IMG/VR virus record: IMGVR_UViG_3300038551_000315
Coordinates: 1-26,408 of that record
Direction: 5' to 3' (one strand)
DNA: 26,408 nucleotides
Source of the DNA: a virus
Shown here: in pieces, positions 5,752 to 24,950 of the stretch
How positions within the stretch are numbered: position 1 is the first letter of the stretch
Layout of the letters: each line of letters opens with the position of its first letter
The notes under the pieces: generated by a model
The model's input: the letters and a program-made list of their open reading frames with translations, nothing else
Databases searched by the model: none
Told to the model about the DNA's origin: nothing
Position numbers and translations under genes: made by a program

Positions 5752-5760
5752 CCGCGGCGG
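5744..5760 (+). promoter_or_regulatory. Inverted repeat over stop codon at 5749-5751
   Basis: CCGCC (5744-5748) pairs with GGCGG (5756-5760) around a seven-base loop that contains the TGA stop. The repeat lies immediately upstream of the GTG start of the large protease fusion at 5768 and covers most of the place where a ribosome-binding site would be. It could therefore limit initiation there. The stem is short, so chance is possible in such GC-rich DNA. Confidence 0.3.
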
Positions 5761-9469: not shown

Positions 9470-9501
9470 CAACTGGATTTCGGAGGGTCAGGCTCCAGGG
9501 C

Positions 9502-10545: not shown

Positions 10546-10560
10546 GGCGGAAGGGCAGAC

Positions 10561-10583: not shown

Positions 10584-10596
10584 AGGAGGAAGTCAG

Positions 10597-11553
10597 ATGG
10601 TCGCAGGGATCACGGACAATCGCTCGTTGCTGGAGAAGGCGGACCTCGCGCTGGCGGACCTGCTGTCGGACGGCGGCCTGTTGCAGCCGGCGCAGGCGCA
10701 GACGTTCATGCGCCTGCTGATCGACGAAGCGGTCGTCATGAAGATGGCGACGGTCGTCCCGATGCGCACGCCGAGCCAGCTGATCGAGAAGATCAAGTTC
10801 GGCTCGCGCATCCTGCGCCCCGGCGTGGAGGCGACGGCGCTCGCCGCGACGGAGCGCGTCAAGCCCGACCTGAGCAAGGTCGAGTTGGCCGCGAAGCTCT
10901 TCAAGGCAGAAGTCTACCTCGGCGACGAGACGCTGGAGGACAACATCGAGAAGGACGCGCTCCGCAACACGATCATGCAGATGCTCGGCGAGCGGATCGC
11001 GACCGACCTCGACGAACTGATCCTCAACGGCGACACCGCGTCGGCCGACCTCTTCCTGAAGACGCTGAACGGGATCGTCGCGCAGATCACCGGCGCGGGC
11101 TCGCACACGGTGAACGCGACCGACACGCGCCTGAACAAGGGGATCCTGCGCGACTGCTTCCGCGCGATGCCGTCGCCCTACCTGCGGGCGCCCCAGCGGA
11201 TGGCGTTCCTGACCTCCATCGACGCGGAACTCGACTGGCGCGACTCCGTGAGCGACCGCGCGACGCCGCTGGGCGACGACGCGGTGGTCGGGGCGGGGTC
11301 CATCCCGTACTCCAAGGTGGCGGTCATCGGCGTGCCGATGATGCCGGAGAACGTCGGCACGGGCTCGCACTGCACCTACGTCATCTTCTGCGACCCGAAG
11401 AACATCAACGTGGGCGTCCACCGGGAGATCCGCATCGAGACGGACCGGGACATCTCGGCGGGCGTCCTGAAGGTCGTGGCGTCCCTGCGCGTGGACGTGA
11501 AGTGGGCCGAGATGCCCGCCACGGTGAAGGCGTACAACGTCAAGGCGGCGTAG
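10597..11553 (+). CDS. Major capsid protein (HK97-fold type)
   Basis: The 318-residue protein is the shell subunit by position (after protease and scaffold-like genes) and by its sequence layout. An N-terminal helical stretch (LLEKADLALADLLSDGGLL) leads to LQPAQAQTFMRLLIDEAVVM, a beta/E-loop-like region (about 55-110), a spine-helix-like segment LRNTIMQMLGERIATDLDEL (about 127-146) and a C-terminal strand region ending DVKWAEMPATVKAYNVKAA. The ATG at 10597 follows a strong GGAGGA. There is no extra decoration domain. The stop codon lies in the loop of an inverted repeat. Hairpins on both sides of the gene suggest a protected or individually ended mRNA, in line with the high expression expected of this product. 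Confidence 0.87.
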   Translation: MVAGITDNRSLLEKADLALADLLSDGGLLQPAQAQTFMRLLIDEAVVMKMATVVPMRTPSQLIEKIKFGSRILRPGVEATALAATERVKPDLSKVELAAKLFKAEVYLGDETLEDNIEKDALRNTIMQMLGERIATDLDELILNGDTASADLFLKTLNGIVAQITGAGSHTVNATDTRLNKGILRDCFRAMPSPYLRAPQRMAFLTSIDAELDWRDSVSDRATPLGDDAVVGAGSIPYSKVAVIGVPMMPENVGTGSHCTYVIFCDPKNINVGVHREIRIETDRDISAGVLKVVASLRVDVKWAEMPATVKAYNVKAA

Positions 11554-11595
11554 CCGCCGCGAACTGAGCCGGCGGCGGGGCCGCTGCCCCGCCGC
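11544..11595 (+). promoter_or_regulatory. Overlapping alternative hairpins at the 3' end of the capsid gene
   Basis: Three pairings can be read. H1: GGCGGC (11544-11549) with GCCGCC (11553-11558), loop GTA, enclosing the stop TAG. H2: GCCGCCG (11553-11559) with CGGCGGC (11570-11576). H3: GCGGCGGGG (11572-11580) with CCCCGCCGC (11587-11595), a perfect nine-pair stem with a six-base loop. H2 excludes both H1 and H3, while H1 and H3 can coexist. This resembles an attenuator or a stacked 3' end structure. No T-tract follows H3, so a classical intrinsic terminator is not supported. The ribosome-binding site of the next gene follows at about 11606-11611. Confidence 0.5.
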
Positions 11596-11618
11596 GCGGA
11601 GTCGGAAGGAGAACGAAC

Positions 11619-11957
11619 ATGGCAGGCGGAGCGACCTCGGCACTCGGAACGCTGGCGATCGTCGAGTCCATCAAGCACGACGGCGGCTCCTTCGTGGACC
11701 GCTGCACGCTGGTCGGGGACGCCGACTACGCGACGAACGGGACCTCGGGGCTCCAGGCGGCCCTCCGCGCCCTGCGGAAGTCCCCGCACCTCGACCTCGT
11801 GTCCGTCGTGGACGAGGGCGTCCAGGCGGGCCACTACCTCGTGTACGACCACGCGGCCGACAAGCTCGTGGCGTTCGTGCGGACGACGGGCGTGGAGGCG
11901 GCGGCAGGGACGGACCTGCACGCGACGACCTTCGTCCTGGTCATCGCGAGCTACTAG
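11619..11957 (+). CDS. Probable head decoration protein (112 aa)
   Basis: This small protein directly after the capsid gene has a strong ribosome-binding site (GGAAGGAGA). Residues 1-20 are Ala/Gly/Ser rich. The rest alternates strands (HYLVYDHAADKLVAFVRTT, DLHATTFVLVIASY) as in a compact beta protein. No signal peptide is present. Size and position match capsid decoration or cement proteins, but no family motif is recognised, so the role is contextual. The stop codon is enclosed in an eight-pair inverted repeat and a second hairpin follows, as if the transcript segment were individually protected. Confidence 0.7.
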   Translation: MAGGATSALGTLAIVESIKHDGGSFVDRCTLVGDADYATNGTSGLQAALRALRKSPHLDLVSVVDEGVQAGHYLVYDHAADKLVAFVRTTGVEAAAGTDLHATTFVLVIASY

Positions 11958-11991
11958 CTCGCGGCGACGAGTGCCCGCGCCTTCGCGGGCA
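11945..11991 (+). promoter_or_regulatory. Two tandem hairpins at the 3' end of the decoration gene
   Basis: The first is CGCGAGCT (11945-11952) with AGCTCGCG (11956-11963) around the loop ACT; the stop TAG is at 11955-11957. The second is TGCCCGCG (11972-11979) with CGCGGGCA (11984-11991) around loop CCTT. Both stems are perfect eight-pair stems and can coexist. The next ribosome-binding site (GAGGAG, 11992-11997) follows immediately. No T-run is present. Confidence 0.55.
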
Positions 11992-12004
11992 GAGGAGTTG
12001 AACG

Positions 12005-12934
12005 ATGACGACGGAAGTCAAGACCTCCTTCGGTTCGGGTGGGGCCGGGCTCGCGCCCGGCTCGTCGAGCGTTCCCGACCTCGCCACGATCCTGCGGGGG
12101 ATCATCGACGACATCGGCTCCGTCAAGGGGGCGACCGTCTCGACGGGCGACGTGAGCGCCACGGCAGCGGCGGCCGTGGCCGCCGTGGCGACCGGAGATT
12201 CGACGGCGACCGCCGAGGCTGCCATCGCGGCCGTCGGGACGGCCGACGTGGGCGAGACCTACGGCGTGGCGGACGGGTTCATCGTCGGCGCGCCGACGAC
12301 CCCGTCTTCGCAGGCGGTGGACCCCGGCGGCGAGACGGACTGGAACGTGAACGTCTCCGCCGGGTACGGTTTCTGCAACGGCGTGGGCCACTACCACGCG
12401 GCGCAGGTGGACCTGAACGTGTCCACCGGCGTCAAGATCATGAACATCGGCCAGGGCGTCTACGCCTGGATCGTGCTGGCCGAGGCCGCCGGCGTCGTGA
12501 CCTGGGTCGTCGTGCTCGGCGTCGCCGCCGCTTGGGGCGCGCAGACGATCCCGACCGACGGGGACATCACGACCGGCGTCGGGCACGCGCGCTGGACGAA
12601 GGTGGCGCTCTGCCTCGCGCACCGCACGGCCGACGCCGCCGTGACCACGACGGAGGACCCGTCCCCGATGAAGAAGTGGGGGGGCGCCGGCACCACCCTG
12701 ATCAACGAACTGAAGACCCGCGCGGGCGAGGCTCGCACGCTCGCGAACGACCTGCGGACGAAGTACAACGCGGCGGTCACGCTGATCAACGAACTGAAGA
12801 CCCGCGCGGGCGAGTCGAAGACGCTGACCGACGAGCTCAAGAACGACCTGGGCGAGGCGCGCGCGCTGGCGAACGCGCTGAAGGCGGCGCTCAACGCCGT
12901 CGCCGCGTGGTCGCAGACCGTCGTGAAGGGCTAG
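12005..12934 (+). CDS. Fibre-like virion protein with C-terminal coiled-coil repeats (309 aa)
   Basis: The N-terminal 40 residues are flexible (FGSGGAGLAPGSSSVPDL) and lead into an Ala/Thr-rich segment (about 45-80). A beta domain (about 95-215) follows, containing VDPGGETDWNVNVSAGYGF and HARWTKVALCLAHRTA. The C-terminal 75 residues are a helical repeat: TLINELKTRAGE occurs twice exactly, followed by related copies (TLTDELKNDLGE, ALANALKAALNA), so a trimeric coiled coil is likely. The architecture of attachment segment, beta domain and coiled coil fits a capsid fibre. Its place immediately after the decoration gene and before the connector genes favours a head-bound over a tail-bound fibre. 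The exact function is unknown. The ribosome-binding site GAGGAG precedes the ATG. Confidence 0.7.
   Translation: MTTEVKTSFGSGGAGLAPGSSSVPDLATILRGIIDDIGSVKGATVSTGDVSATAAAAVAAVATGDSTATAEAAIAAVGTADVGETYGVADGFIVGAPTTPSSQAVDPGGETDWNVNVSAGYGFCNGVGHYHAAQVDLNVSTGVKIMNIGQGVYAWIVLAEAAGVVTWVVVLGVAAAWGAQTIPTDGDITTGVGHARWTKVALCLAHRTADAAVTTTEDPSPMKKWGGAGTTLINELKTRAGEARTLANDLRTKYNAAVTLINELKTRAGESKTLTDELKNDLGEARALANALKAALNAVAAWSQTVVKG
12698..12814 (+). repeat. 33-bp exact direct repeat within the coiled-coil region
   Basis: The same 33 bases occur at 12698-12730 and 12782-12814, 84 bases (28 codons) apart and in frame. They encode LINELKTRAGE. Identity at the DNA level, including third positions, points to a recent tandem duplication or gene conversion within the gene, which would lengthen the coiled coil. 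Further diverged copies follow to about 12890. Confidence 0.85.
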
Positions 12935-12935
12935 G

Positions 12936-12959
12936 TCCGCCCGCGCCGACCGCGGCGGA
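12936..12959 (+). promoter_or_regulatory. Stem-loop just after the fibre gene stop
   Basis: TCCGCC (12936-12941) pairs with GGCGGA (12954-12959). A smaller inner GCG/CGC pairing is possible. The stem begins two bases after the stop TAG (12932-12934). No T-run follows. Confidence 0.35.
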
Positions 12960-12980
12960 ATGGGCCACCGGAGGGAAGCC

Positions 12981-13409
12981 ATGGGAACCAAGATCGTCCG
13001 AGTGCGGCCGCCGTCGAAGCGGGACCCGTCCTGCATCGACACCCACGTCGTCGCCGGGGCGAAGTTCGTCCAGGGCGGCGGGTGGTACGAGGTGCCGGAC
13101 GCCATCGCGGCGGTGCTGGCGGAGACGCGGGTGAACGAGGGCGACCCGAACTCCTCCCCCGCGTTCGACGTGTGCGCGACCAAGGACGCCGCGCTGGCCC
13201 TGGAGGAGAAGCTCAGGGCGGAGGACGCCGAGCGGGAGGCGAAGGCCACCGCGCCCCGCGTCGTCCAGTTCTCGGGGATCTCGACGGGCGCGCTGACGAC
13301 GGCGGACCTCCCGCGTCCGTCGACGCCGGGCGTGCTCCAGCCGCCGCCGCCGGCCCCGCCGGCAGACGGCTCAGGGAAGCGGGCGTCAGCCCGCGCGAAG
13401 CCCGAGTAG
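12981..13409 (+). CDS. Hypothetical phage protein (142 aa), proline-rich C-terminus
   Basis: The ATG at 12981 is preferred over the ATG at 12960 because GGAGGGAA lies six bases upstream. Residues 1-75 form a compact region (KIVRVRPPSKRD, KFVQGGGWYEVPDAIAAVL). An acidic helix (EEKLRAEDAEREAKA) leads to a flexible Pro/Ser/Ala tail with a run of prolines (about 121-127) and a basic end. In head-to-tail gene blocks, small proteins with such a domain plus low-complexity tail are often virion-associated, but I do not recognise this one. An imperfect inverted repeat, GAGT and GTCGCGACTC, overlaps its stop codon. Confidence 0.68.
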   Translation: MGTKIVRVRPPSKRDPSCIDTHVVAGAKFVQGGGWYEVPDAIAAVLAETRVNEGDPNSSPAFDVCATKDAALALEEKLRAEDAEREAKATAPRVVQFSGISTGALTTADLPRPSTPGVLQPPPPAPPADGSGKRASARAKPE

Positions 13410-13420
13410 TCGCGACTCCC

Positions 13421-13439
13421 GCCGCTCTTGGTGGGCGGC
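13421..13439 (+). promoter_or_regulatory. Intergenic stem-loop
   Basis: GCCGCTC (13421-13427) pairs with GGGCGGC (13433-13439), with one G-U pair and loop TTGGT. It sits in the 61-base gap between two genes, upstream of the ribosome-binding site GGGAGGA. There is no T-run. Confidence 0.35.
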
Positions 13440-13470
13440 TCGGGCGCAACGGCTCGGGCGGGAGGACGCG

Positions 13471-15147
13471 ATGACCGAATCCGTCAAGGACGCCGCGACC
13501 GGCACCGACCGAGACGTCAGCGGCCCGCAGGTACGGCTCCCCGTCTCGCGCACGTACACCTACGACACGGGCAAGCAGATGACCTTCCGCTCGCTCGGGA
13601 TCGACGCCGCCTTCTCGCTTCTGCCCGGAGCAGCGGAATCGATCAGCGTGGTCGGGGACGCCGTGGTGATGGAGTTCAAGGGCGACGTTTCGACCCTCGG
13701 GACGATCCAAGCGCTGATCGCGAGCAACCCGGTGGCCAAGGAGATGATCGCCCTCAGCGGCGATGCGGGGACCATTCCCCTCGCGTGGGCCGGGGCGGCG
13801 GCGAACCTGTGGAACGACCTCTACGCGACGGCCGCCGCGATGATCGTCCAGGACGACGAGGGGCACTGGGCGCCGTTCTCGGGGAAGTCGATCGTCGTCG
13901 AGGTGAAGCTCGACGCGTTCGCCGCCGTTCCTGACTCGGCTCTCTCGGTCGGCACGGACGACGGGCTCATCAGCGGCGCCAAGAAGGTCCAGATCGTCAC
14001 CGCCGACGGGACGCGCGTGCAGCAGACCGATGCGACCAAGCTGGTCGCCACTGTGAAGCAGGGCACCGCGGCCGATCTCAAGTGCGAGCCGACGCAGGCC
14101 GACGCGGCGAAGCTCGTCGTGACGGCCAAGCAGGCGACGGCGGCCGACCTGAAGTGCACGGAGGCCAGCGCGGCGGACATCAAGACCGCCGTGCAGGAGG
14201 TCGCGTCTGCTTGCGCCACGGATCGGGCCGACGCCGCACCCGCGGAGGCACTGTTGGGGGGCGGCAAGGCGACCGACCTGACGGCGCTCCCGGCCGACGT
14301 TGCGGCCGGCAAGCTGGTGGCGTTCCTGGCCGACCTGAAGGGAATCCTACTGAGCCGGTTGATGCTCCCGATCGCGGTTGGCGGCGCGGCCGGCGAAGTC
14401 GTAGGCACGACGGGTAAGCTGCCCTACGTTGCCGGCGTCTCGCACACCATCAACGCAACCGGGCCGAAGACGGTGACGGTCCGCGAGTTGGTCGGAGGTG
14501 TGTCGTGGTCGGTCGCCAGCGGCGGCGGGCATAGCGTCTTGGCTAGCGGCAGGGCCGTGACGATCACCGTCAAGAACGACGACAGCACGACGACCGCCGA
14601 CGTGATTGCAGACATCGCCGCGTCGGCCACCGTCTCCCGCCTGATGGCGCTCACCGGCACCGCGGGAGATCATTGGGACCACACGCTTGCCGGAGCCGGC
14701 GAGGCGCTGGAATACGACGGGACGATCCCGGCGCAGGTGACGTGCATGCGCTGGCCGGACGGCTACTTCCGGCCCGCCGAGATCGACAGCACGGACGGGA
14801 TCAAGACCTCCCTGTCGTCGCTCCTCTTCTCCGAGGATGGCTCGCGCAACGTCATGCGCGTCGAACGGCAGGGCGGCGAGACGGGCCGGTCGGCCGCGAG
14901 CGCGATCGTCGTCCCGGCAGGGACCACGGGCCGCATCCTCGGCCACGTGCTCGAAGCCGGCGCGGGCGGGGCGACCTTCAACGTGCGCAAGGACGCCGTG
15001 ATCGGGGGCGCGATCATCGCGCAGTTCGTCCTCGCGGCAAACACCTACGATCTGCGCGACTGGCCCGACTGGCCCTTCGGCAACGGCCTGTACTGCGAGA
15101 TCGCGGCCGGTGGCGGCGCGTTCAACTTCGTCACCCGCAACACCTAG
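13471..15147 (+). CDS. Large fibre-like virion protein with internal repeats (558 aa)
   Basis: No enzyme motif is seen. The N-terminal 150 residues look like a folded domain (SRTYTYDTGKQMTFRSLGID, GDAVVMEFKGDVSTLGTIQA). Residues about 185-250 hold short tandem units built on DATKLVATVKQGTAADLKC, DAAKLVVTAKQATAADLKC and a shorter SAADIKTAVQEV. Such units are typical of beta-helical or triple-stranded fibre shafts. The C-terminal 180 residues contain strand-rich segments (SAIVVPAGTTGRILGHVLEA) that could be a head or adhesin domain. The start codon follows GGGAGGA. With the preceding fibre and the following lectin-like gene it forms a surface-protein island. Whether it sits on the capsid or the tail cannot be read from sequence alone. 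Confidence 0.7.
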   Translation: MTESVKDAATGTDRDVSGPQVRLPVSRTYTYDTGKQMTFRSLGIDAAFSLLPGAAESISVVGDAVVMEFKGDVSTLGTIQALIASNPVAKEMIALSGDAGTIPLAWAGAAANLWNDLYATAAAMIVQDDEGHWAPFSGKSIVVEVKLDAFAAVPDSALSVGTDDGLISGAKKVQIVTADGTRVQQTDATKLVATVKQGTAADLKCEPTQADAAKLVVTAKQATAADLKCTEASAADIKTAVQEVASACATDRADAAPAEALLGGGKATDLTALPADVAAGKLVAFLADLKGILLSRLMLPIAVGGAAGEVVGTTGKLPYVAGVSHTINATGPKTVTVRELVGGVSWSVASGGGHSVLASGRAVTITVKNDDSTTTADVIADIAASATVSRLMALTGTAGDHWDHTLAGAGEALEYDGTIPAQVTCMRWPDGYFRPAEIDSTDGIKTSLSSLLFSEDGSRNVMRVERQGGETGRSAASAIVVPAGTTGRILGHVLEAGAGGATFNVRKDAVIGGAIIAQFVLAANTYDLRDWPDWPFGNGLYCEIAAGGGAFNFVTRNT

Positions 15148-15158
15148 GGAGACGGTGC

Positions 15159-15440
15159 ATGCCTTGCCTTCGCGTGACCCTGGACCTCGCGTTCGACTCC
15201 AACGAGGCGGGCGCGTGTACGCGCCCCGGCGCGCAAGCGAAGTACGACGCGCTCCTCGCCGCCATCGCGGCGGCGCGTCCGTTCGCTGCGTGGCTGACCG
15301 CGGACGAGGACGGCACGGGTGCGAATCGGCATCTGTGCCGCCATCCCGAGGGCGGGTCGTGCCCGAGTCCGACCGAGGTTGGCACGCGCCCCGTGAAGCG
15401 GGTCGCCGTGCCCGCCGTGATCGGTGAGATCGAGCCATGA
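15159..15440 (+). CDS. Hypothetical phage protein (93 aa)
   Basis: The small protein starts at ATG 15159 after a weak GGGAGA site and overlaps the lectin gene by ATGA at its end, so the two are probably translated in a coupled way. It contains four cysteines (C3, and three among residues 20-70), an Ala-rich helix (KYDALLAAIAAARPFAAWL) and a basic, Pro/Val C-terminus. No family is recognised. Coupling suggests a partner or chaperone of the lectin-domain protein, as inference. Confidence 0.6.
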   Translation: MPCLRVTLDLAFDSNEAGACTRPGAQAKYDALLAAIAAARPFAAWLTADEDGTGANRHLCRHPEGGSCPSPTEVGTRPVKRVAVPAVIGEIEP

Positions 15441-16822
15441 GCCGGATCGTCATTCCATCGGCGCGCGTCGCGTCCGCGGCACGCCGCCTCGTGCTGCCCG
15501 TTGGCATGAAGGGGCGGGCGTCGATCCGGTTCGACGGGACGGACGACCGAGTGGTCGGCGCCGCACCGGGGATCTCGGGATCCGCGGCGTGGACGATGGC
15601 GGTCCGGGTGCGGCCCGTCCGCACCACGGCCACTACGCCGATGGCGCTCTTCTTCGGTAGCAGCGCCGGCGGGAAGCAGGGCGCATATCTCGGTGGCGTG
15701 CGTGTCACCGGGATCGACTACGTTGGCGGCGGGCTCTTCGGCGGGGCCACTGCCTATTCCACGGCGCATCCGATTTCGGCCAACCAGCGATGGATGCGTC
15801 TCGTCCTCACATACCCCGGCGGCGCGGCGCAAAAACTCACGGCCTATCTCGACGGGGAGTTCCTCGTACAGTCCTCCGCGGATACGCCCGCCATCGTGGA
15901 CACCGCGACGATCCTCGGAGCCGGGACCGCGGCGGGCGGCTACTGTTGGCCGGGCAACACCTCCGACGCTCGCATCTACTCGCGCGCGTGGACCAACGTG
16001 GAGGTCGCCGCCGACGCTCGCGGCGAGTGGGTGGATCCTACCGGGCTCGTGCGTTGGTGGACCTGCGAGAATCCCGGCTACGGCACGACCTGCCACGAGG
16101 AGATCGGGAACACCGAGGACACGATGACGGGCGCGGTGTGGTCGCCGGACGTGCCGTTCAGGCGACGGCGCGTGGTCGAGGATGTGGCGGCGGCATTCGC
16201 GGGTGACGGGAACAAGTACATCACCATCACCCATGCGGCGGGCATCGATCCCGGCGCCGGATCCTTCGGCGTCGGAATGTGGATGCGTATCGTGCCCACC
16301 GCACAGACAGTGGCCCGCAAGTATGACGGGACGAATGGTTGGTTACTGGCCCGCCACGCCAACGGACGCCTCTACTGTGCGCTGGTTTCCGGTGGATCGG
16401 GGATCAATCTCGGCCTGACCGATGGACCGATTTTCAACGACTATCGGTGGCATCGCGTGTGGCTCGTGCGGGACGTGTCCATTCCACGGTTCTTCCTGTT
16501 CGCTGATGCCGCCGCGCCAGCGACGCTGGCCGACTCGCTCGGATCGATCGGTACCACGGCCCACATGTACGTTGGGTCCAGCGCTGGCGTTTCCCTGACC
16601 GGCGCCGCCAACGACCTCACCGTCGTCATCGGACGCGCGCCGACATGGGCCGAGTTGGACGCCGACTGCTATGATGGTGTCCTGCCCGCTGGCGCGATCC
16701 TGTGGTCCTTGCGGGAGGGAAGCGGCACATCCGCCGTGAGCGTTCCGGCTGGATACAACGGCACATTGTCCGCTGCGGGATGGACGACGGCCACCCGCTG
16801 CAAGGCTCGGACGGCCGCATGA
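15437..16822 (+). CDS. Double LamG/concanavalin-like lectin-domain protein (461 aa)
   Basis: Two jelly-roll domains can be read. The first (about 27-205) opens with SIRFDGTDDRVV, holds WTMAVRVRP, RWMRLVLTY and KLTAYLDGE, and ends in the typical DARIYSRAWTNVEVAA. The second (about 255-450) opens with AAFAGDGNKYITI and contains GVGMWMRIVP, YRWHRVWLVRD and a similar closing strand. LamG-type folds bind glycans or proteins on surfaces, so adsorption or adherence is likely. The start overlaps the upstream stop (ATGA), and the stop overlaps a 30-residue ORF. Codon use is more mixed (more A/T at third positions) than in neighbouring genes, which may reflect more recent acquisition. Confidence 0.75.
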   Translation: MSRIVIPSARVASAARRLVLPVGMKGRASIRFDGTDDRVVGAAPGISGSAAWTMAVRVRPVRTTATTPMALFFGSSAGGKQGAYLGGVRVTGIDYVGGGLFGGATAYSTAHPISANQRWMRLVLTYPGGAAQKLTAYLDGEFLVQSSADTPAIVDTATILGAGTAAGGYCWPGNTSDARIYSRAWTNVEVAADARGEWVDPTGLVRWWTCENPGYGTTCHEEIGNTEDTMTGAVWSPDVPFRRRRVVEDVAAAFAGDGNKYITITHAAGIDPGAGSFGVGMWMRIVPTAQTVARKYDGTNGWLLARHANGRLYCALVSGGSGINLGLTDGPIFNDYRWHRVWLVRDVSIPRFFLFADAAAPATLADSLGSIGTTAHMYVGSSAGVSLTGAANDLTVVIGRAPTWAELDADCYDGVLPAGAILWSLREGSGTSAVSVPAGYNGTLSAAGWTTATRCKARTAA

Positions 16823-16911
16823 TCTCCGAGGTCCACGTCGGGGCGCGCGTCATCGATCCCGAGTACGGCCCCGGCGTCGTGCTCGACGGCGCGGACGGAA
16901 GGCAACCATGA
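16819..16911 (+). CDS. Possible microprotein (30 aa) with SH3/Tudor-like motif
   Basis: This short ORF overlaps the lectin stop (ATGA) and its own stop overlaps the next start (ATGA), the arrangement expected of a coupled gene. The peptide contains GARVIDPEYGPGVVL. This resembles the VGDRVxHPxFGxGTV strand motif of SH3/Tudor-like domains, such as those at the C-terminus of UvrD/PcrA helicases or in CarD-type proteins, but far shorter than any of them. It has no independent ribosome-binding site. It may be a real microprotein or only a coupling bridge. Confidence 0.45.
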   Translation: MISEVHVGARVIDPEYGPGVVLDGADGRQP

Positions 16912-17168
16912 CCGGAGGTGAAATCGCGCTCGTGTCGGGCACCACGACGACCGTCGGCACGATCGTGTTCGGTGCCCTCAAGATCGTCCAGAAGGTCCCG
17001 TCCTCTCGGAACGGCAAGACGTCCTCGCCGATGACTCTCGCGATGGACCACAGACCGTGCTACGCGGCCGTCGAGCGGCTAGTGGTCTCGAAGGACAGGT
17101 ACACGGAGGCGCTGGAGCGGTACATCACCCGGCAGGGCAGTTCATGCTATGATTCGAGAAGTGGATGA
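16908..17168 (+). CDS. Hypothetical small protein with one hydrophobic segment (86 aa)
   Basis: The ATG at 16908 has a GGAAGG site five bases upstream and overlaps the preceding stop. Residues 5-28 (IALVSGTTTTVGTIVFGALK) form a possible membrane segment. The rest is basic and polar with a helix near VERLVVSKDRYTEALERYI. A single hydrophobic segment and small size recall phage membrane proteins such as holin-like or accessory proteins, but no family is recognised. The stop overlaps a 21-residue ORF. Confidence 0.55.
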   Translation: MTGGEIALVSGTTTTVGTIVFGALKIVQKVPSSRNGKTSSPMTLAMDHRPCYAAVERLVVSKDRYTEALERYITRQGSSCYDSRSG

Positions 17169-17230
17169 CCTTCGAGGAGGGCCGTCGGGGCGGGCTAAGG
17201 CAGACGGGCAAGTTCCCGGTGCCGGAGTGA
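17165..17230 (+). CDS. Possible microprotein (21 aa)
   Basis: The ATG overlaps the preceding TGA, as in neighbouring genes, and the frame stays open for 21 codons (begins MTFEEGRRGG, ends KFPVPE). It ends ten bases before the next start. The size is too small for similarity judgement. Coupling geometry is the only support. Confidence 0.25.
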   Translation: MTFEEGRRGGLRQTGKFPVPE

Positions 17231-17239
17231 GGTGATCGA

Positions 17240-17482
17240 ATGGCAGGCGGAGGTGGCACGATTTCCTTCACGGCGTACCAGTGCGATCCGCCGGACATGA
17301 CGCCGGCGCAGGCAGCGGCGATCGTGCGTGGCAGGACGGGGGCGTTCTTCATCTTCCAGGGCGCGCTGAACCCGCCCCCGCCGTACCTGACGACGTTCGT
17401 CGTGACGAGGGCGACGTGCGACTACCTGGAAGGGCTTGGCTGGACGAAGACGAAGTTCACGTGGCCGCCGCCGATGGAGTAG
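17240..17482 (+). CDS. Hypothetical small protein (80 aa)
   Basis: The ATG at 17240 follows GGAGTGAGGTGA. The sequence is compact with Gly/Pro turns: TISFTAYQCDPPDMTPAQAA, GAFFIFQGALNPPPPYL and a C-terminal YLEGLGWTKTKFTWPPP. It contains two cysteines, no signal peptide and no clear membrane segment. The family is not recognised. It immediately precedes the head-tail adaptor, three bases away. Confidence 0.65.
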   Translation: MAGGGGTISFTAYQCDPPDMTPAQAAAIVRGRTGAFFIFQGALNPPPPYLTTFVVTRATCDYLEGLGWTKTKFTWPPPME

Positions 17483-17485
17483 CAG

Positions 17486-18583
17486 ATGGTAGCCGTCGCC
17501 CGATCGCAAGCGCTCAGCGCGGCCGCCCCCGCGCTCGTGGCACTGATCCGCGACGGGCAACGCCTCCTCGACCCGTACAGCTTGAAGTTCCAAGTCTACG
17601 ACGTGTCGTCTGACGCGAAGCGGCTCGCCCCGGTGCGAACCGCGCCGCCTGTGCCGACGCCGCCGACCCCCGACCCGGTGTACGTGGACGTCGACCTCGT
17701 GAACGACCGGCTCGGGCTGGGCCGGTACGCCGCGAAGTGGACCGTGCCGGTGGCCGAGCCGCTCGGTCGGCACCTCATCAAGTGGTACCTCAAGCGGACG
17801 ACCGCCTCGACGGAGGAGTCCTGGACGGAGGAGTTCGAGGTGCTCGCCGGGCTCGCCGTAGGCGTTCCGCAATCGTATTGCCTCCTCTGCGACCTCCGCG
17901 AGCAGGGGATCGCCGAGGCGACGTACAGCGACGTGAAGCTGCTCGTCCTGGCGTCGGAGGCGTCCCGGTTCGTCGAGCGATGCACGTGCCGCTTCTTCGA
18001 GCCGCGCTACCAGTCCCTTGCCCTCTCCGGCACCGGCGGGCAGGCGCTTTTCGTGGAGCACCCGATCATCGCCGTCGAGACGGTGAGCATCGCGAGCCAA
18101 TGGTCGGACGACTACGACCTCGACGACGCCGACTTCGTCGTCTACAACCGGCACCTGGACGGGCTCCTCCTGCCGGACGACCGGGAAGTCCCGAAGATCG
18201 ACCTCGTGTTCGCTCCGTCCGACTCCCGCGACCAGTCGGCGCTCGGCCGGCGTGAGGGGTGGCCGACCGGGAAGCAGAACGTCGTCGTGACCGGCGTGTT
18301 CGGGTACACCGACCCCGACGGATCGCCCGTCGGGTGCACTCCGCGCGAGATCCGCCGCGTCGTGATGGCCCTCGTGTACCGCGACCTGCTCCCGCTGACG
18401 AGCGCGGACCGCGAGGACCGCAGGCTGCGGCACCTCGTGACGAGCGAGACGGTGCGCGACCAGACGATCGCGCGGAAGTTCGCCGGGGACGCGGCGGGGG
18501 GTTGCACGGCGTTCACCGGCGATTCCGAGATCGACTCCATCATCTTGCGCTACCGGAGGGGAGGGATCGTGTGCGCGGCCTGA
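17486..18583 (+). CDS. Head-tail connector (gp6-like adaptor) with N-terminal beta domain
   Basis: This is a 365-residue protein. Residues about 25-125 form a beta-sandwich-like region (SLKFQVYDVSSDAKRL, YVDVDLVNDRLGLGRYAAKW, EEFEVL) reminiscent of Ig-like attachment domains. From about 135 the protein has the gp6-like adaptor pattern: helix SDVKLLVLASEASRFVERCT, then CRFFEPRYQSLALSGTGG, and strands LFVEHPIIAVETVSI. A segment VVVTGVFGYTD and a long helix IRRVVMALVYRDL follow, ending in a helical tail. Adaptors of this class bind the portal and extend the channel. The extra N-terminal domain is unusual for an adaptor of this class and may face outward. GGAG lies a few bases before the ATG. Assigned from fold pattern and position. 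Confidence 0.75.
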   Translation: MVAVARSQALSAAAPALVALIRDGQRLLDPYSLKFQVYDVSSDAKRLAPVRTAPPVPTPPTPDPVYVDVDLVNDRLGLGRYAAKWTVPVAEPLGRHLIKWYLKRTTASTEESWTEEFEVLAGLAVGVPQSYCLLCDLREQGIAEATYSDVKLLVLASEASRFVERCTCRFFEPRYQSLALSGTGGQALFVEHPIIAVETVSIASQWSDDYDLDDADFVVYNRHLDGLLLPDDREVPKIDLVFAPSDSRDQSALGRREGWPTGKQNVVVTGVFGYTDPDGSPVGCTPREIRRVVMALVYRDLLPLTSADREDRRLRHLVTSETVRDQTIARKFAGDAAGGCTAFTGDSEIDSIILRYRRGGIVCAA

Positions 18584-18603
18584 GTTTCCTGGGGGGCGGC
18601 GAC

Positions 18604-18633
18604 GACCGCGGGGTTTTCCCCCCGGCCGCGGTC
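18604..18633 (+). promoter_or_regulatory. Stem-loop in the adaptor/closure gap
   Basis: GACCGCGG (18604-18611) pairs perfectly with CCGCGGTC (18626-18633) around a 14-base loop that contains TTTT. It lies in the 70-base gap after the adaptor gene. No T-run follows the second arm. It may be a processing or coupling element, or a U-less terminator. Confidence 0.45.
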
Positions 18634-18653
18634 GCGCCGCCCCACCCTTCCAG

Positions 18654-19160
18654 GTGAGCCCTTTGCGCGGACGACTCCTCCACCCGTTTCTCGCTGGCCT
18701 GCGGCAGTACAGCCCGACGAAGACGGTCTCGGAGCACTCGCCGGGCTTCGACCCGATCCTGCGCGAGCCGATCCGCGTGCCGGATGCCTCGCCGTCCGGG
18801 TCGCGCTCCGCGCGCGAGGAAGACGGCGAGATTCGCCTCCGCTGCCAGTTCGAGGACAACGAGGAGGAGAGGCTTCGCCAGATCCAGGCGGGCGCGGCGC
18901 CGCAGTCCAACTTCGCGCTCACCTTCCACTTCGCGGACCTGGAGGCGGCGGGAATGGTGGACGCGACGACGGGCGACCCGAAGATCCGCGTCGGGGACCG
19001 CCTCGCCGCACTCTACGAGGTGGACGGAACCCTTGTCCGCGCGTTCGCCAACCCGCCCGGCATGTTCGCGACGGCAGTGAAGCCGTCGGGGTTCGGAATC
19101 GGGGGCAAGCGAAACCTCCTCGTCGTCACCTTCGAGGACCGCATCCAGGGGGCGGGATGA
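18654..19160 (+). CDS. Putative head closure protein (168 aa)
   Basis: The gene lies between the adaptor and the Mu gpG-like protein, the usual place of a head-closure (stopper) protein. Residues 60-80 (IRLRCQFEDNEEERLRQIQA) and the strand set SNFALTFHFADLEAAG, KIRVGDRLAALYEVDG and RNLLVVTFEDRI fit a small beta barrel. The GTG start has only a weak CAGG site, and a stem-loop lies upstream. Its stop overlaps the next start by ATGA. The name is inferred from position and secondary structure; no diagnostic motif is seen. Confidence 0.62.
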   Translation: MSPLRGRLLHPFLAGLRQYSPTKTVSEHSPGFDPILREPIRVPDASPSGSRSAREEDGEIRLRCQFEDNEEERLRQIQAGAAPQSNFALTFHFADLEAAGMVDATTGDPKIRVGDRLAALYEVDGTLVRAFANPPGMFATAVKPSGFGIGGKRNLLVVTFEDRIQGAG

Positions 19161-19795
19161 CGATCGAGAAGTTCGGCGACTGGTCGAAGGTGGGCGAGAT
19201 CCTTCGCACCGCCCCGCAGCGGCTGAAGGATGCAACGCGAAAGGCGCTGCTCCAGGAGGGGCAGTTCCTGCGCAACAAGATCGTCGAGGGCATCCGCGAG
19301 CAAGCGCCGGGCGGAGAGGCGTTCGCCCCGCTCGCACCGCTCACCGTCGCGAAGCGCCAACGGGAAGGCTTCCCAGGAACGAAGGCCCTCGTCCGGCAGG
19401 GCGACCTGCGGAACTCCGTCGCGGTGAAGGAGCAGGGCGAGGCGGTCTTCGTCGGCGTCCATCGCTCGGCCGTCGGCAAGGACGGGAAGTCGCTGGCGAA
19501 CGTCGCGGAGATCCACGAGTACGGCGCCGGCCCCTACGTCGTGATGCTGACGGACAAGGTCCGCCGCGCCCTCTTCGCGCTCATCCGCGAGGCCGGCGTG
19601 GAGCGAGCAGAACCGAAGACGGGCGGAGGGACAGGCTTCATCGTCATCCGGATTCCCCCGCGCCCATTCGTCGGGCCAATCTGGCAACAGTGGGGCACGC
19701 CGCCCGAGCAGGTGGCGGAGCGGTTCATGGCGAGGCTCGGGCAGCAGTTGGGCGGGGATTTCGGTTCGACGGGGAAGGCACCCCCTCCCGCGTAG
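19157..19795 (+). CDS. Mu gpG-like virion morphogenesis / tail completion protein
   Basis: The protein has 212 residues. The N-terminus is helical (LKDATRKALLQEGQFLRNKI). A basic segment with APLTVAKRQREG leads to LVRQGDLRNSVAVKEQG. It is followed by VAEIHEYGAG and IPPRPFVGPIW, which together mark the phage virion-morphogenesis family (Mu gpG, HK97 gp10-like) that joins head and tail. The start overlaps the preceding stop by ATGA. The C-terminus is polar and proline-rich. A short inverted repeat encloses the stop codon. The family call is good; the exact neck position is inferred. Confidence 0.8.
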   Translation: MTIEKFGDWSKVGEILRTAPQRLKDATRKALLQEGQFLRNKIVEGIREQAPGGEAFAPLAPLTVAKRQREGFPGTKALVRQGDLRNSVAVKEQGEAVFVGVHRSAVGKDGKSLANVAEIHEYGAGPYVVMLTDKVRRALFALIREAGVERAEPKTGGGTGFIVIRIPPRPFVGPIWQQWGTPPEQVAERFMARLGQQLGGDFGSTGKAPPPA

Positions 19796-19800
19796 GCGGG
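19787..19800 (+). promoter_or_regulatory. Small inverted repeat over stop codon at 19793-19795
   Basis: CCCGC (19787-19791) pairs with GCGGG (19796-19800) around loop GTAG, which contains the TAG stop. The stem is short, so it carries weight mainly as one of a series of stop-centred repeats. Confidence 0.35.
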
Positions 19801-19824
19801 CGGCGTGCTATAGGTGTTCCCACC

Positions 19825-20793
19825 ATGAGCGTACCGTCCATCTCGACCGTGACCCCCTCGACGGGGCTGACGGCGGGCCGCACGCTGGTCGAGATCACGG
19901 GTTCGGGGTTCCGCCTCCCACCAGATCCGGCACCCACCGGCCCCGTTCCCCCGTACCCGCCGACCGTCGCCGTGCTGTTCGGCGCGACGCCCGCCCTCGC
20001 CGTGAAGGTCTTGTCGTCGTCCCTTCTGACGGCGCTGACGCCGGCGAGCGACGCGGGCGCGGTGAGCGTCACGGTCAAGAACCTGGACGATGCGGGCGTT
20101 CCGATCCCTGGCGAGGTGGCGACGAAGGCGGCGGGGTACGCCTTCGCCCGACCGGGGCTCGCGCCGCAGGCGAACGCGGTGCTGGAGCCCATCGCGCTGC
20201 GCGTCGTCAAGGCGCTCGTGGCGGCGCTGCGCCGCGCCGTGCTCGACAACGTCGTGTTGATGGTCCACACGGAGTACGACGACGTGCCGGGCGGGGTCGA
20301 GGTGGCGATGCTCGCTTCCCTCCCCGCGCTCGCCGTCGGCGGGCCCGAGTTCGTCGAGGTTCGACAGGCCGACCAGAACGAGCCGCCGGAGGAGCAGGTC
20401 TCGGACGCCGCCTTCCGAACCATGCGACCGTCGAGCGCGTTCGACCTCGTGTTCGCCATCACAGGGGCGGCGGACTCGACCGGCCAACTGCACTTCCTGC
20501 TCGACGCGACGAGGGACTTCTTCGATCGGGCGCACTCCCTGGAGATCGCCCGCGACCCGGCCGATTCGAGCGTCGGAACCGTCAGCTACCCGATGGACGT
20601 GCCGCTCGGGCCGAACTGGCGGGTGACCTCCGCCCCGAACGAGGCGAACGTGCAGACGTTCACGGGGTCTTGCGTCGTGCGGGGCGTGCGTCGGGAGGGG
20701 GCCGCCGGGGTGGCCGGAGACCTCCGACGAGAACGGGGTGGACGAACGACCGACGAGGGTGCTACCATCGAGGTCAGCCGAACGGAGGAGTGA
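19825..20793 (+). CDS. Putative tail terminator with N-terminal TIG/IPT (Ig-like) domain
   Basis: In this 322-residue protein, residues about 5-95 match the IPT/TIG fold: PSISTVTPSTGLTAGRTLVE, then ITGSGF, VAVLFGATPALAVKVLSSS and VSVTVKN. The C-terminal part (about 120-300) starts with a helix ALRVVKALVAALRRAVLDNV. A segment PSSAFDLVFAITGAADSTGQ and a helix HFLLDATRDFFDRAHSLEI follow, a helix/strand order typical of tail terminator proteins. Position before the sheath gene agrees. A terminator caps the growing tail tube; the added Ig-like domain would be surface exposed. The ATG at 19825 has a moderate AGGTG site. The terminator role is inferred, while the TIG domain is clear. Confidence 0.66.
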   Translation: MSVPSISTVTPSTGLTAGRTLVEITGSGFRLPPDPAPTGPVPPYPPTVAVLFGATPALAVKVLSSSLLTALTPASDAGAVSVTVKNLDDAGVPIPGEVATKAAGYAFARPGLAPQANAVLEPIALRVVKALVAALRRAVLDNVVLMVHTEYDDVPGGVEVAMLASLPALAVGGPEFVEVRQADQNEPPEEQVSDAAFRTMRPSSAFDLVFAITGAADSTGQLHFLLDATRDFFDRAHSLEIARDPADSSVGTVSYPMDVPLGPNWRVTSAPNEANVQTFTGSCVVRGVRREGAAGVAGDLRRERGGRTTDEGATIEVSRTEE

Positions 20794-20796
20794 GCA

Positions 20797-21168
20797 ATGG
20801 TGACCCTGCGAAACCGAACCAAGCAGCCGCGGGTCTACAACCTGACGCATGAGCACTACTGCGTCCGCGACGGAACGTGCTCCTGCTCGACCACGACGAC
20901 GATCCATTCCGCCACCGCGCCGGGCGGGGCGCACGGGACGAAGACGGTTCGTCGCCGGGTGCCGGCAGTCCTCACGATCCTCGCAGGGCAGACCGTCGAT
21001 GTTCGGAGCGCGGCGCTGCACGTGCCGGAGATCGCACGGGACGTGGCGGCACGCATCCTCGTGGCGTCTCCCGAGTGGAAGACGACGGCAGAGGAAGCTC
21101 GCGAGGCCGCAGACGCGGCAAAGCCGGAAGCGACGGTGCGGACAACGCGCCGGGGGCGCGCGCGCTAG
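20797..21168 (+). CDS. Hypothetical small His/Cys-containing protein (123 aa)
   Basis: The ATG follows a strong GGAGGAG, three bases after the previous stop. Near the N-terminus is HEHYCVRDGTCSC (about residues 18-30), a clustered His/Cys pattern that could bind a metal. Strands VPAVLTILAGQTVDVRSAAL and a charged Ala-rich tail (EEAREAADAAKPEA) follow, ending in arginines. The family is not recognised. Position immediately before the sheath is shared with other small tail accessory genes. The gene ends in a perfect 16-base palindrome that contains the stop. Confidence 0.7.
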   Translation: MVTLRNRTKQPRVYNLTHEHYCVRDGTCSCSTTTTIHSATAPGGAHGTKTVRRRVPAVLTILAGQTVDVRSAALHVPEIARDVAARILVASPEWKTTAEEAREAADAAKPEATVRTTRRGRAR

Positions 21169-21174
21169 CGCGCG
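21159..21174 (+). promoter_or_regulatory. Perfect 16-bp palindrome centred on a stop codon
   Basis: CGCGCGCT (21159-21166) is followed directly by its reverse complement AGCGCGCG (21167-21174). The stop TAG (21166-21168) lies at the centre. The ribosome-binding site of the sheath gene (GGGAGGA) follows directly. No T-run is present. A zero-loop repeat must open a few central pairs to form an RNA hairpin. Confidence 0.6.
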
Positions 21175-21186
21175 GGAGGAACGACA

Positions 21187-23436
21187 ATGGGCAACGACCT
21201 TCTCGCGTCCAAGGTGATCACGACCGAGGCCGCGCCGGGCATCCGGACGCTGCCGGCGCTGGCGACTGCGGTCCTGGGGATCTGCGGGATCTCCGAGCGC
21301 GGTCCGATGGGGGTGGCGACGCTCTGCACGAGCTTCGAGGACTTCGTCCAGAAGTTCGGGGGCGACTTCGCGAACTCGGCCGCCGTGCTCCAGGTGCGCG
21401 GCTTCTTCCAGGGCGGCGGGCAGTTCCTCGTGTTCACCCGGACCTGCCACTACACGGACATCAACACGCCCGCGACGGCCACGGCGACGACGGGGACGAA
21501 GACGCTGAAGACGGCGGTCGTCGCTCCCACGGCCGGCTACTCGCAGGGGTCGGTCGTGGGGCCGTGGGACCTGACGCCCGCCGACACGCTCGTCGTGACG
21601 GTGGACGGGGGTGCCCCGGCGACGGCGACCTTCAACGCGACGGCCGCCGCGCGGCAGAACGGCGTCGACGAACCGTTCGCCCTGGCCGACAGCCAGACGC
21701 TGACGCTGAAGATCGACGAGGGTGCGTTGCAGACCGTGACGTTCCTGACGGGCGAGTTCGTGGACATCGCGAACGCGACTGCCGAGGAAGTCGCGGCCGT
21801 CATCAACGCCAAGATGACGGGGGGCCAAGCGACGGTCACCGGGGGAGGCAAGCGCGTCACGATCACGAGCGACAAGCAGGGGACCGGGTCCGGCGTCAAC
21901 GTCACCGGGGGGACGGCGAACGCGGCACTCCAGTTCACGACTGGGCTCGTCTCCGGGACGGGCAACGTGGCGGACATCAACGCGGTCTCCAACGCCGAGG
22001 CGAAGGCGATCGTCGAGCTTGCCGTCGCGGGGTGCACGGTGACGAGCGTCGGGGGCTGCGCGCGGATCTCCTCGAACACGACCGGTCCGGCTTCCTCGAT
22101 CCTCGTCGGCGCGGCCTCCACGGCCGACGACGAGATGGGCTTTGACAACGCCACGCACAGCGGGGCCAGCGGAGCGGCCGTGGACACGCTGCGGCTGGAC
22201 GGGAAGGATCCCGGCTCCTACGCGAACGACTTCAAGGTTCGCATCGAGGCGGCCACCTCGGGCGTCTCGGAGGAGTTCAACATGACCTTCGAGCGGTCCG
22301 GGATCGCCCTGGAGCGCTTCCCGAACCTCTCGATGGACGACGCCGCCCCGCGCTACGTCGAGACGATCGTGAACGCCGCCGTCGGGGGATCCGTGTACCT
22401 CGCCGGCACCGACCTCGACGCGGTGGCGTCCAGCCAGCGCCCGGCGAACGGGCTCTACGGGCCGCTGACGGGCGGCGGCGACGGGTTGGCAGGCATCGCC
22501 GACACCGACTTCATCGGCTCGGCCGCGGGGAAGACCGGGCTCCGCGCGTTCGACCTGCACACCCCCGTCGACGTGACCATCCTCGCCGTGCCCGACCGCC
22601 CGACGGCGGCCGTGCATCAGGCGATGTACCAGTACAGCGAGGTGCAGGCCGGCAAGCGGATCTTCTGCATCTTCGACCCGCCCGCGAGCATGGACGCCGC
22701 CGCGATCGTGGCGTACTTCACCTCGACGGCTGCGCTGTACGAGGCGACCGAGGTGGGCGCGATGCTCTGGCCCCGGATCAAGGTCTACAACCCGAACAAG
22801 GACGTGTACGGCGATACCGACGACCTCACCGTCTGCAACTCCGGCTACTGGGCCGCCACGATGGCGCGGGTCGACGGGACGCAGAAGCCGGGCATCTACC
22901 AGCCGCCGGCCGGGATCGAGTATGGCCAACTCCTCGGCGTGATCGGGGTCGAGGCGGAGGCGGTGCTCGACGAGTCGGTTCGGGACGTGGTGTTCCCGAA
23001 GAACGTCAACCCGATCAACCTGGGCGCCGGCTACTACGCGGACGGCGGGCGCTGCGCGAAGACGAGCGGGAACTTCGGCACGATCGGCCAGCGCCGCGGG
23101 GCGTCGTTCATCGAGCAGACGCTGAAGGCCGGGATGCTCTTCGCCAAGCACCGCAACAACAACCCGCGCCTCCGCGCCGAGTGCGACCGGACGACCCGCG
23201 CGTTCCTGCTCCAGCAGATGCGGCGCGAGGCGTTCGCCTCGATGGACCCCGACACCGCGTTCGTGATCGACTGGGACGTGCCGGGCCTGGGGCTCAACAA
23301 CGCGTCGGTGCAGCACCAGCGGCTGCTGAAGGCGCGGATCGGCCTCGCCTTCTCGGACCCGGCCGAGTTCGTGTGGATGGAGTTCAGCGCGGACCTGCGG
23401 GCCATCGAGGAGGCGCTGATCCTGGAGGCCGCCTAG
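21187..23436 (+). CDS. Contractile tail sheath protein with large internal insertion
   Basis: The 749-residue protein polymerises around the tail tube and contracts to drive infection. Sheath hallmarks are the N-terminal APGIRTLPALATAVLGICGI and FGGDFANSAAVLQVRGFFQG (about 15-82), and a core around ILAVPDRPTAAVHQAMYQY and YWAATMARVDGTQKPGIYQP. The C-terminal assembly domain includes RLRAECDRTTRAFLLQQMRR and ends VWMEFSADLRAIEEALILEA. Between residues about 100 and 330 lies a beta-rich insertion built of related modules: TLTLKIDEG to ALQFTTG (about 172-249), then a shorter copy to DEMGFDN (about 320). Typical sheaths are roughly 400-660 residues, so the insertion explains the size. The start follows GGGAGGA. 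Confidence 0.92.
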   Translation: MGNDLLASKVITTEAAPGIRTLPALATAVLGICGISERGPMGVATLCTSFEDFVQKFGGDFANSAAVLQVRGFFQGGGQFLVFTRTCHYTDINTPATATATTGTKTLKTAVVAPTAGYSQGSVVGPWDLTPADTLVVTVDGGAPATATFNATAAARQNGVDEPFALADSQTLTLKIDEGALQTVTFLTGEFVDIANATAEEVAAVINAKMTGGQATVTGGGKRVTITSDKQGTGSGVNVTGGTANAALQFTTGLVSGTGNVADINAVSNAEAKAIVELAVAGCTVTSVGGCARISSNTTGPASSILVGAASTADDEMGFDNATHSGASGAAVDTLRLDGKDPGSYANDFKVRIEAATSGVSEEFNMTFERSGIALERFPNLSMDDAAPRYVETIVNAAVGGSVYLAGTDLDAVASSQRPANGLYGPLTGGGDGLAGIADTDFIGSAAGKTGLRAFDLHTPVDVTILAVPDRPTAAVHQAMYQYSEVQAGKRIFCIFDPPASMDAAAIVAYFTSTAALYEATEVGAMLWPRIKVYNPNKDVYGDTDDLTVCNSGYWAATMARVDGTQKPGIYQPPAGIEYGQLLGVIGVEAEAVLDESVRDVVFPKNVNPINLGAGYYADGGRCAKTSGNFGTIGQRRGASFIEQTLKAGMLFAKHRNNNPRLRAECDRTTRAFLLQQMRREAFASMDPDTAFVIDWDVPGLGLNNASVQHQRLLKARIGLAFSDPAEFVWMEFSADLRAIEEALILEAA

Positions 23437-23442
23437 GCGGCC
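23427..23442 (+). promoter_or_regulatory. Perfect 16-bp palindrome centred on the sheath stop codon
   Basis: GGCCGCCT (23427-23434) is followed directly by AGGCGGCC (23435-23442), exact reverse complements with the stop TAG (23434-23436) in the middle. The tube gene's ribosome-binding site GGAGGTG begins a few bases downstream. No T-run is present. Confidence 0.62.
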
Positions 23443-23458
23443 CGGTGGAGGTGATGCG

Positions 23459-23926
23459 ATGGGCGGCGTGATCGGAACCCCCCGCGTCTGGCGGTCGAAG
23501 TGGAAGTTCGTGGTCGAGATCGACGGCGTCGCGTACGCCGGCTTCGAGAAGTGCGACGGGCTGGAGGCGGAGGTCGCCGTCTCGGAGCACTACGAGGGCG
23601 GCGCGATGATCCCCGACAAGTCGCCGCAGCGCGTGAAGTTCAGCGACCTGACGCTGGAACGCGGCGCGTGCCAGGACCAGGACCTGTACGACTGGTTCGT
23701 GGAGGTCGCGAAGGCCGCCGCCGGCACGGGGCTCGTGGACCCCGAGTTCAAGCGCAACCTGGACATCGTCCAGCAGGAGCGGGACGGGTCGGAGATCGAG
23801 CGGTACCGCGTCTTCAACGCCTTCCCGCGCAAGTTCAACCCGGCCTCGGGCGGGTGGGACAACAACTCGGACGACAACCGCGTTGAGCAGGTCGTCCTCG
23901 CGTACGACTACTGGGAGCGCGTCTAG
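23459..23926 (+). CDS. Tail tube protein (T4 gp19-like family)
   Basis: The 155-residue protein forms the hexameric inner tube inside the sheath. It shows the gp19-like beta-barrel order: WRSKWKFVVEIDGVAYAGFE, then KCDGLEAEVAVSEHYEGG, VKFSDLTLERGACQDQDLYD with WF next, and RYRVFNAFPRKFNP close to the C-terminus before VEQVVLAYDYWERV. The length is normal for this family. The ATG follows GGAGGTG within 15 bases of the sheath palindrome. The stop is enclosed in a six-pair inverted repeat. Confidence 0.9.
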   Translation: MGGVIGTPRVWRSKWKFVVEIDGVAYAGFEKCDGLEAEVAVSEHYEGGAMIPDKSPQRVKFSDLTLERGACQDQDLYDWFVEVAKAAAGTGLVDPEFKRNLDIVQQERDGSEIERYRVFNAFPRKFNPASGGWDNNSDDNRVEQVVLAYDYWERV

Positions 23927-23931
23927 CTCCC
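23913..23931 (+). promoter_or_regulatory. Inverted repeat over the tube stop codon
   Basis: GGGAGC (23913-23918) pairs with GCTCCC (23926-23931) around a seven-base loop. The stop TAG occupies 23924-23926, partly in the loop. No T-run is present. Confidence 0.5.
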
Positions 23932-23973
23932 CGCCCACCGCGCCCGGCGTAGGCGGCACCACCGGAGGGAACC

Positions 23974-24938: not shown

Positions 24939-24950
24939 GAGCGCGGAACC

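Follow-up and report, generated by a model that had tools for sequence, protein, structure and literature searches.

Introduction

Several kinds of RNA hairpin have been described at the ends of bacterial cistrons. In the gal operon of Escherichia coli, the E-hairpin has a stem with seven G-C pairs plus one G-U pair; it stops exonuclease digestion of transcripts ended by Rho and fixes the position of the galE mRNA 3' end (PMC9239205). In GC-rich Streptomyces, 353 of 535 structured 3' ends carry no U-tract, and a 3' barrier role has been proposed for U-lacking structured ends in that GC-rich genome (PMC8269248). Other intrinsic terminators are built of hairpin clusters, defined downstream of the stop (PMC8355165), and structure has been reported upstream of the stop in E. 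coli genes that end in UAA, where it is linked to termination (PMC4619774). A terminator close to a stop codon loses nearly all its activity to the translating ribosome: with the stop 28 bp upstream it stands at about 90%, and with the stop 5 bp upstream at below 10% (PMC4824070).

Here we describe stems predicted over the stop codons of virion genes in a phage late operon. The window, meaning the whole stretch of DNA analyzed, is a 26.4-kb viral contig (26,408 nucleotides; 70% G+C; IMG/VR record IMGVR_UViG_3300038551_000315) with both ends cut. Like the gal E-hairpin, its stems are short, GC-rich and free of a U-tract, they stand at cistron ends inside an operon, and a stable upstream mRNA is proposed; unlike the gal E-hairpin, which lies about 130 nt beyond its stop, they hold the stop in the loop and are predicted from sequence (PMC9239205). 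With the U-lacking 3' ends and I-shaped terminators they share a GC-rich stem in a GC-rich genome and at most 2 U among the 8 bases that follow, but those are mapped transcript ends, whereas the phage stems are predictions that overlap coding sequence (PMC8269248). The window stems are of the stable, U-lacking type, with stability above chance in the capsid and decoration regions only. As in hairpin-cluster intrinsic terminators, tandem hairpins lie within 50 nt of the stop after the capsid and decoration genes of the window; those clusters are, however, defined downstream of the stop, and relatives do not as a rule carry their hairpins in tandem (PMC8355165). Finally, the phage stems resemble the E. 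coli structures in lying beside stop codons, but they are centered on all three stops rather than upstream of UAA alone, and are confined to certain virion genes (PMC4619774). We found nothing in the literature on hairpins over phage capsid stops, and Rfam returned no match.

The late operon and its hairpins

The window carries the late head-to-tail operon of a contractile-tailed phage, with every gene on the + strand. Large terminase, portal, a Mu-F-like protein, a fused ligase-protease ORF and a scaffold-region gene precede the capsid, which is followed by the decoration candidate, neck and tail genes, sheath, tube and the start of the tape measure (Table 1). The decoration candidate has no match in Pfam or PHROG. 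In the fused gene (5768-9469), a single 1233-aa ORF, residues 801-985 are an ATP-dependent DNA ligase domain and residues 1116-1224 an XkdF-type prohead protease domain, after about 800 residues without an assigned domain.

Capsid relatives from bacterial genomes (n=54) are in the majority from Myxococcota, including Myxococcus, Archangium and Polyangiaceae. In many of the Myxococcota genomes L413-L431 (e.g., L414, L417, L420, L421), the capsid homologue is interrupted at a constant position, near model residue 197, and its second half continues in another frame; both halves are well conserved and there are often at least two copies per genome. A programmed frameshift, a capsid gene in two parts or an old inactivation could each account for this.

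Table 1. Genes, stop-codon stems and intergenic hairpins of the window. Pairing probability for the capsid stem refers to a 100-nt context.
Feature	Position	Strand	Pairs and loop	Details
Major capsid gene (HK97-like)	10597..11553	+		Pfam Phage_capsid 7e-8; PHROG 1623 'virion structural protein' 1e-92; PHROG 10 major head protein 3e-8
Small gene after capsid, probable decoration protein	11619..11957	+		Assigned by position only; tblastn relatives at the equivalent place, e.g., L002
Tail sheath gene	21187..23436	+		PHROG 17610 tail sheath 2e-32; tblastn to Streptomyces phage sheaths
Tail tube gene	23459..23926	+		Pfam T4 gp19 1e-27; PHROG 4542 tail tube 1e-24
Stem over stop at 5749	5743..5758	+	5 pairs	Within chance; pairing probability 0.2-0.4
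Capsid stop-centered stem GGCGGC-GUA-GCCGCC	11544..11558	+	6 pairs, loop 3	U-less tail; pairing probability about 0.5; formed in the MFE of 11540-11620
Hairpin in capsid-decoration gap	11572..11595	+	10 pairs (perfect), tetraloop CGCU	Pairing probability about 0.87; 1 T in next 8 bases
Decoration stop-centered stem CGCGAGCU-ACU-AGCUCGCG	11945..11963	+	8 pairs, loop 3	Pairing probability about 0.96
Hairpin UGCCCGCG-CCUU-CGCGGGCA	11972..11991	+	8 pairs	Adjoins extended decoration stop stem (11937-11971); 2 T in next 8 bases
Stem over stop at 19793	19787..19800	+	5 pairs	Within chance; pairing probability about 0.6
Stem over stop of gene 20797-21168	21157..21174	+	7 pairs, loop 4	Adjoins the sheath gene's GGAGG
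Sheath stop stem GGCCGC-CUAG-GCGGCC	23427..23442	+	6 pairs, loop 4	Directly 5' of the tube gene's GGAGG
Tube stop-centered stem GGGAGC-GCGUCUA-GCUCCC	23913..23931	+	6 pairs, loop 7	Pairing probability 0.74-0.86

A first-pass annotation of the sequence had placed stems over the capsid, decoration and tube stops, and these lie where it put them with the pair counts that it gave (6, 8 and 6); its five-pair stems at 5749 and 19793 are likewise present. At 21166 and 23434, the perfect 16-bp palindromes that it listed hold at the DNA level, whereas an RNA fold has to leave the central bases in the loop and so keeps 7 and 6 pairs only, and its nested repeat at 1126 shrinks to 3-4 pairs. Its description of a hairpin on both sides of each abundant virion gene applies to decoration, sheath and tube but not to the capsid, where the preceding stop (10543) has 3 pairs. 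The strongest structures of the region, the hairpins at 11572-11595 and 11972-11991, were absent from its list.

Stop stems and chance expectation in the window

In codon-preserving shuffles (2000 rounds), synonymous codons were permuted within genes and intergenic DNA was shuffled with its dinucleotides kept; across 27 stops, we counted perfect stems of at least 6 Watson-Crick pairs whose loop touched the stop. Five of the 27 stops carried one, compared with 0.94 expected (p=0.002), and an expectation drawn from all coding positions was similar (1.0 in 27). At a threshold of 8 pairs there was 1 stop against 0.10 expected (p=0.097), and with G-U pairs allowed 6 stops reached at least 6 pairs against 2.8 expected (p=0.05). 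The excess that the first-pass annotation put up for this shuffle test is thus present, although its own chance estimate, far less than once for an eight-pair stem fixed on a stop, was too optimistic, given the number of registers and loop sizes open to a stem at every stop. Taken alone, the window is suggestive of non-random stop stems and does not make a compelling case; the relatives supply the decisive evidence. The size of the expectation, together with the weaker p-value once G-U pairs are admitted, is what a purely compositional account would draw upon, in which GC-rich sequence and recurring C-terminal codons would produce many short stems, with the excess arising as a selection effect.

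Folding energies relative to shuffles divide the stems further. The post-capsid region (z -3.2) and the post-decoration region (z -4.0; 0 of 200 shuffles equally stable) are over-structured because each holds a stop stem with a second perfect hairpin close behind it. The stems at 21166, 23434 and 23924 fold no more stably than shuffles (z -0.2, -0.7 and +1.3, the last for 23900-23975). The two sheath-flanking palindromes, which combine shuffle-level folds with no support in relatives, are the weakest part of the pattern.

Stop stems in relatives

Homologues of the capsid, tube and other genes were gathered from viral contigs and bacterial genomes. Each stop was taken as the first one reached by reading on from a tblastn match, and near-duplicates (contexts above about 70% similarity) were discarded; the main set comprises 266 non-redundant capsid, decoration and tail-tube stops. 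The gene families had been named beforehand by the first-pass annotation; the decision to treat three genes without the sheath was post hoc.

Simple conservation of the stems is ruled out, as relatives at 40-63% protein identity do not share the window's stem sequences. The one contig with an alignable stem sequence is the near-identical L018 (99.96% identity), whose 3 differences in 7650 bases all fall outside the stems. Dissimilar sequences pair at the same site: GGUCAGCU-AGU-AGCUGACC and CGUUUC-GUAA-GAAACG over capsid stops (L039 and L091), UCGCGC-AGUA-GCGCGA over a decoration stop (L077) and GGGAA-GUGA-UUCCC over a tube stop (L182). In a few cases (capsid of L030, L091 and L337; tube of L182), a GNRA-type tetraloop (GUAA, GUGA) holds the stop codon itself.

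Across the main set, stem centers with at least 5 pairs accumulate on the stop, with 52 at positions -6 to +5 against 18.5 expected in these 12 bases. The two six-base bins at the stop hold 23 (9.1 expected) and 29 (9.4 expected), and the adjoining bins are at background (13 against 11.3; 11 against 10.3); the mode of the stem center is 0 relative to the stop, and a loop of 4 is the commonest. In a flank-swap permutation, which exchanges 3' flanks between loci of like G+C and keeps both flanks themselves, the three genes had 42 stems against 19.5 (p=0.0003). Gene by gene, the counts were 25 against 12.5 for capsid (p=0.0003), 5 against 1.3 for decoration (p=0.006) and 12 against 6.9 for tube (p=0.04). 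Capsids fetched later (L311 and above) had 8 stems in 63 stops against 2.9 (p=0.006); stricter de-duplication left the ratio unchanged (29 against 13.4; p at most 0.001); and all four genes, sheath included, gave 46 against 27.0 (p=0.002). All of these p-values are approximate because the relatives share ancestry. The first-pass claim of non-random stems on the stops of abundant virion genes is therefore repeated in relatives for capsid, decoration and tube.

Codon choice contributes to the pairing. Synonymous resampling of the C-terminal codons with the 3' flank fixed gave 24.3 stems rather than 42 (p=0.005), so part of the 5' pairing arm lies in codon choice; the same resampling had no effect in the sheath or other genes. 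Stems occur at TGA (21/100), TAA (12/85) and TAG (11/81) with no dependence on the stop codon used. Overall, stems are present at about 16% of the stops of these three genes, roughly one in six, compared with 7%, or one in fourteen, expected. As about half of the relatives' stems are expected by chance, any single stem, including those of the window, may be a chance occurrence.

For the group as a whole, chance is strongly disfavored: a GC-matched null that preserves both flanks still yields the flank-swap result above, and the stems cluster tightly on the stop, a peak missing from some 500 other stops of the same phages. We consider a compositional origin decidedly unlikely, with the lack of a clear excess at sheath stops and in distant Phage_capsid genes remaining in its favor. 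Reading the repeats as DNA-level palindromes, that is, protein-binding or recombination sites at gene ends, is very improbable. Two of them are perfect palindromes with a central CTAG, but no motif is common to the stems of the window or of the relatives, and the excess is tied to the stops of particular genes.

Genes and positions without an excess

The sheath, which the first-pass annotation had counted among the bracketed genes, drops out of the pattern: 79 relatives had 4 stems against 4.9 expected. Neither the sheath (79 stops) nor other genes (445 stops) show a peak on the stop in the positional profile, and the stem at 21157..21174 has no counterpart in 7 relatives of gene 20797-21168, L018 aside. 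A general property of all stops is ruled out by the flank swap (28 against 29.9 in 501 other stops). Free 3' space as the cause is mainly ruled out as well: other genes followed by a gap had 22 stems of at least 5 pairs against 15.5 and 4 of at least 6 pairs against 4.6, compared with 34 against 16.9 and 11 against 4.6 for capsid, decoration and tube. Among distant prophage Phage_capsid genes (n=66) there was no clear excess (4 against 2.8; at 6 or more pairs, 3 against 0.7, p=0.03), and the pattern may therefore be limited to the present lineage. The stop-stem excess is real, then, but gene-specific and independent of sequence; some window stems are at chance level, and the statistical basis is firm.

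A broad 3' folding-energy profile showed diffuse elevation only, after capsid and tube, which makes perfect stems the more telling statistic. Two further enrichments were seen away from the stop. In sheath relatives, stems of at least 5 pairs are enriched 7-24 bases before the stop (9 against 3.2 and 11 against 4.0 in two six-base bins), which may reflect conserved C-terminal codons. Other genes of the relatives have an excess of stems 42-65 bases past the stop (e.g., 50 against 22.2 at 48-53).

U-tracts and termination

The first-pass annotation had noted that T-tracts are absent, and they are. The five main stop stems of the window have 0-1 T in the following 8 bases and the two intergenic hairpins 1-2, and no terminator-like site was found on the + strand of 9400-26408. 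In relatives, the 8 bases after stop stems contain 1.33 T, compared with 1.48 at stops without a stem. The stems thus offer the GC-rich hairpin of a canonical Rho-independent terminator but neither its U-tract nor its distance from the stop; with the stop inside the stem-loop, they are too near to fold behind a ribosome. Because T is not enriched and ribosomes silence terminators near stops (PMC4824070), the stop stem makes a poor terminator and a good candidate for a 3' barrier. Among the roles suggested in the first-pass annotation, 3'-end protection or processing fits best, and a classical terminator fits the stop stems poorly.

In relatives, unlike the stop stems, hairpins 10-80 bases past the capsid stop have at least 4 T in 8 bases in 18% of cases, against 2% in coding sequence, and classical T-tailed hairpins stand 10-90 bases past capsid or tube stops in several relatives (e.g., L289, L347, L002, L039), which suggests termination inside the late operon.

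These hairpins bear on the main rival explanation for the capsid and decoration junctions, hairpin-cluster termination. On this account, the stop hairpin and the next hairpin together would act as a U-less tandem intrinsic terminator, halting part of the transcription after capsid, decoration and tube and setting the excess of these products over those of downstream genes. The tandem hairpins after capsid and decoration, the U-tailed terminators of the relatives just listed and reports that U-less hairpin clusters near stops act as terminators and are commoner in GC-rich genomes (PMC8355165) all point this way. Against it, translation holds down a hairpin lying a few bases from the stop (PMC4824070), and the stop stems of relatives lack T enrichment and are not associated with a downstream stem. 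A rule requiring both stems was rejected on the latter ground: with and without a stop stem, a downstream stem was present in 8/26 and 34/139 capsids and in 1/13 and 21/70 tubes. We judge such attenuation unlikely.

Proposed 3' barriers at virion gene ends

We tentatively favor a reading in which the stems over the capsid, decoration and tube stops are U-less 3'-end barriers or processing boundaries, with weak termination possible in addition. After the last ribosome departs the stop, the hairpin would snap shut and block 3'-to-5' exonucleases or mark a processing boundary. Transcripts ending in the next intergenic region, through Rho or weak hairpin terminators, would be trimmed back to it, leaving a stable message with the entire upstream reading frame, so that capsid, decoration and tube messages might outlast those of their neighbors. 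The last round of translation would be undisturbed, since the hairpin cannot form with a ribosome on the stop.

Hairpins stand at cistron ends, where an exonuclease barrier would be expected; the termination zone that should follow such a barrier is suggested, in the relatives, solely by the T-rich hairpins past capsid and tube. Against a barrier, the sheath is likewise abundant but has no stop-stem excess, stop stems and downstream hairpins of relatives are not associated, and in context the stability of the window's tube and sheath stems is unremarkable. Nor can the stem be required, given the small share of stops that carry one, and the centering on the stop is not itself explained by a barrier, as a hairpin positioned a few bases further on would do the job just as well.

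This centering speaks for a ribosome-gated switch, in which the hairpin, because the stop lies in its loop, would report terminating ribosomes and tune release, re-initiation at the next gene or the coupling of transcription and translation. The window stems at 21166 and 23434 also adjoin the next gene's GGAGG. However, these two are the very stems without support in relatives, the distance to the next Shine-Dalgarno sequence is broadly alike with or without a stop stem (median 49 versus 57), and the identity of the stop codon makes no difference. We regard a switch as quite unlikely.

A wider reading would treat the stems as a recurrently re-invented element of this lineage, restricted to three genes (capsid, decoration, tube) and holding the stop codon in its loop; it would fold only when no ribosome is terminating and thereby tie the fate of each message to its translation. 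As a whole, that composite is unlikely.

From a single operon, phages must obtain capsid and tube proteins by the hundred and only a few copies of portal or tape measure. That stop-centered stems are confined to certain genes, do not depend on sequence and recur in divergent relatives suggests that mRNA 3' structure in the virion operon is under selection, and it makes the long-standing question of late-operon stoichiometry testable in Myxococcota, home of most capsid relatives. Stop-centered hairpins thus point to a previously unrecognized shaping of message ends for the most abundant virion proteins, which may act through the barrier outlined here.
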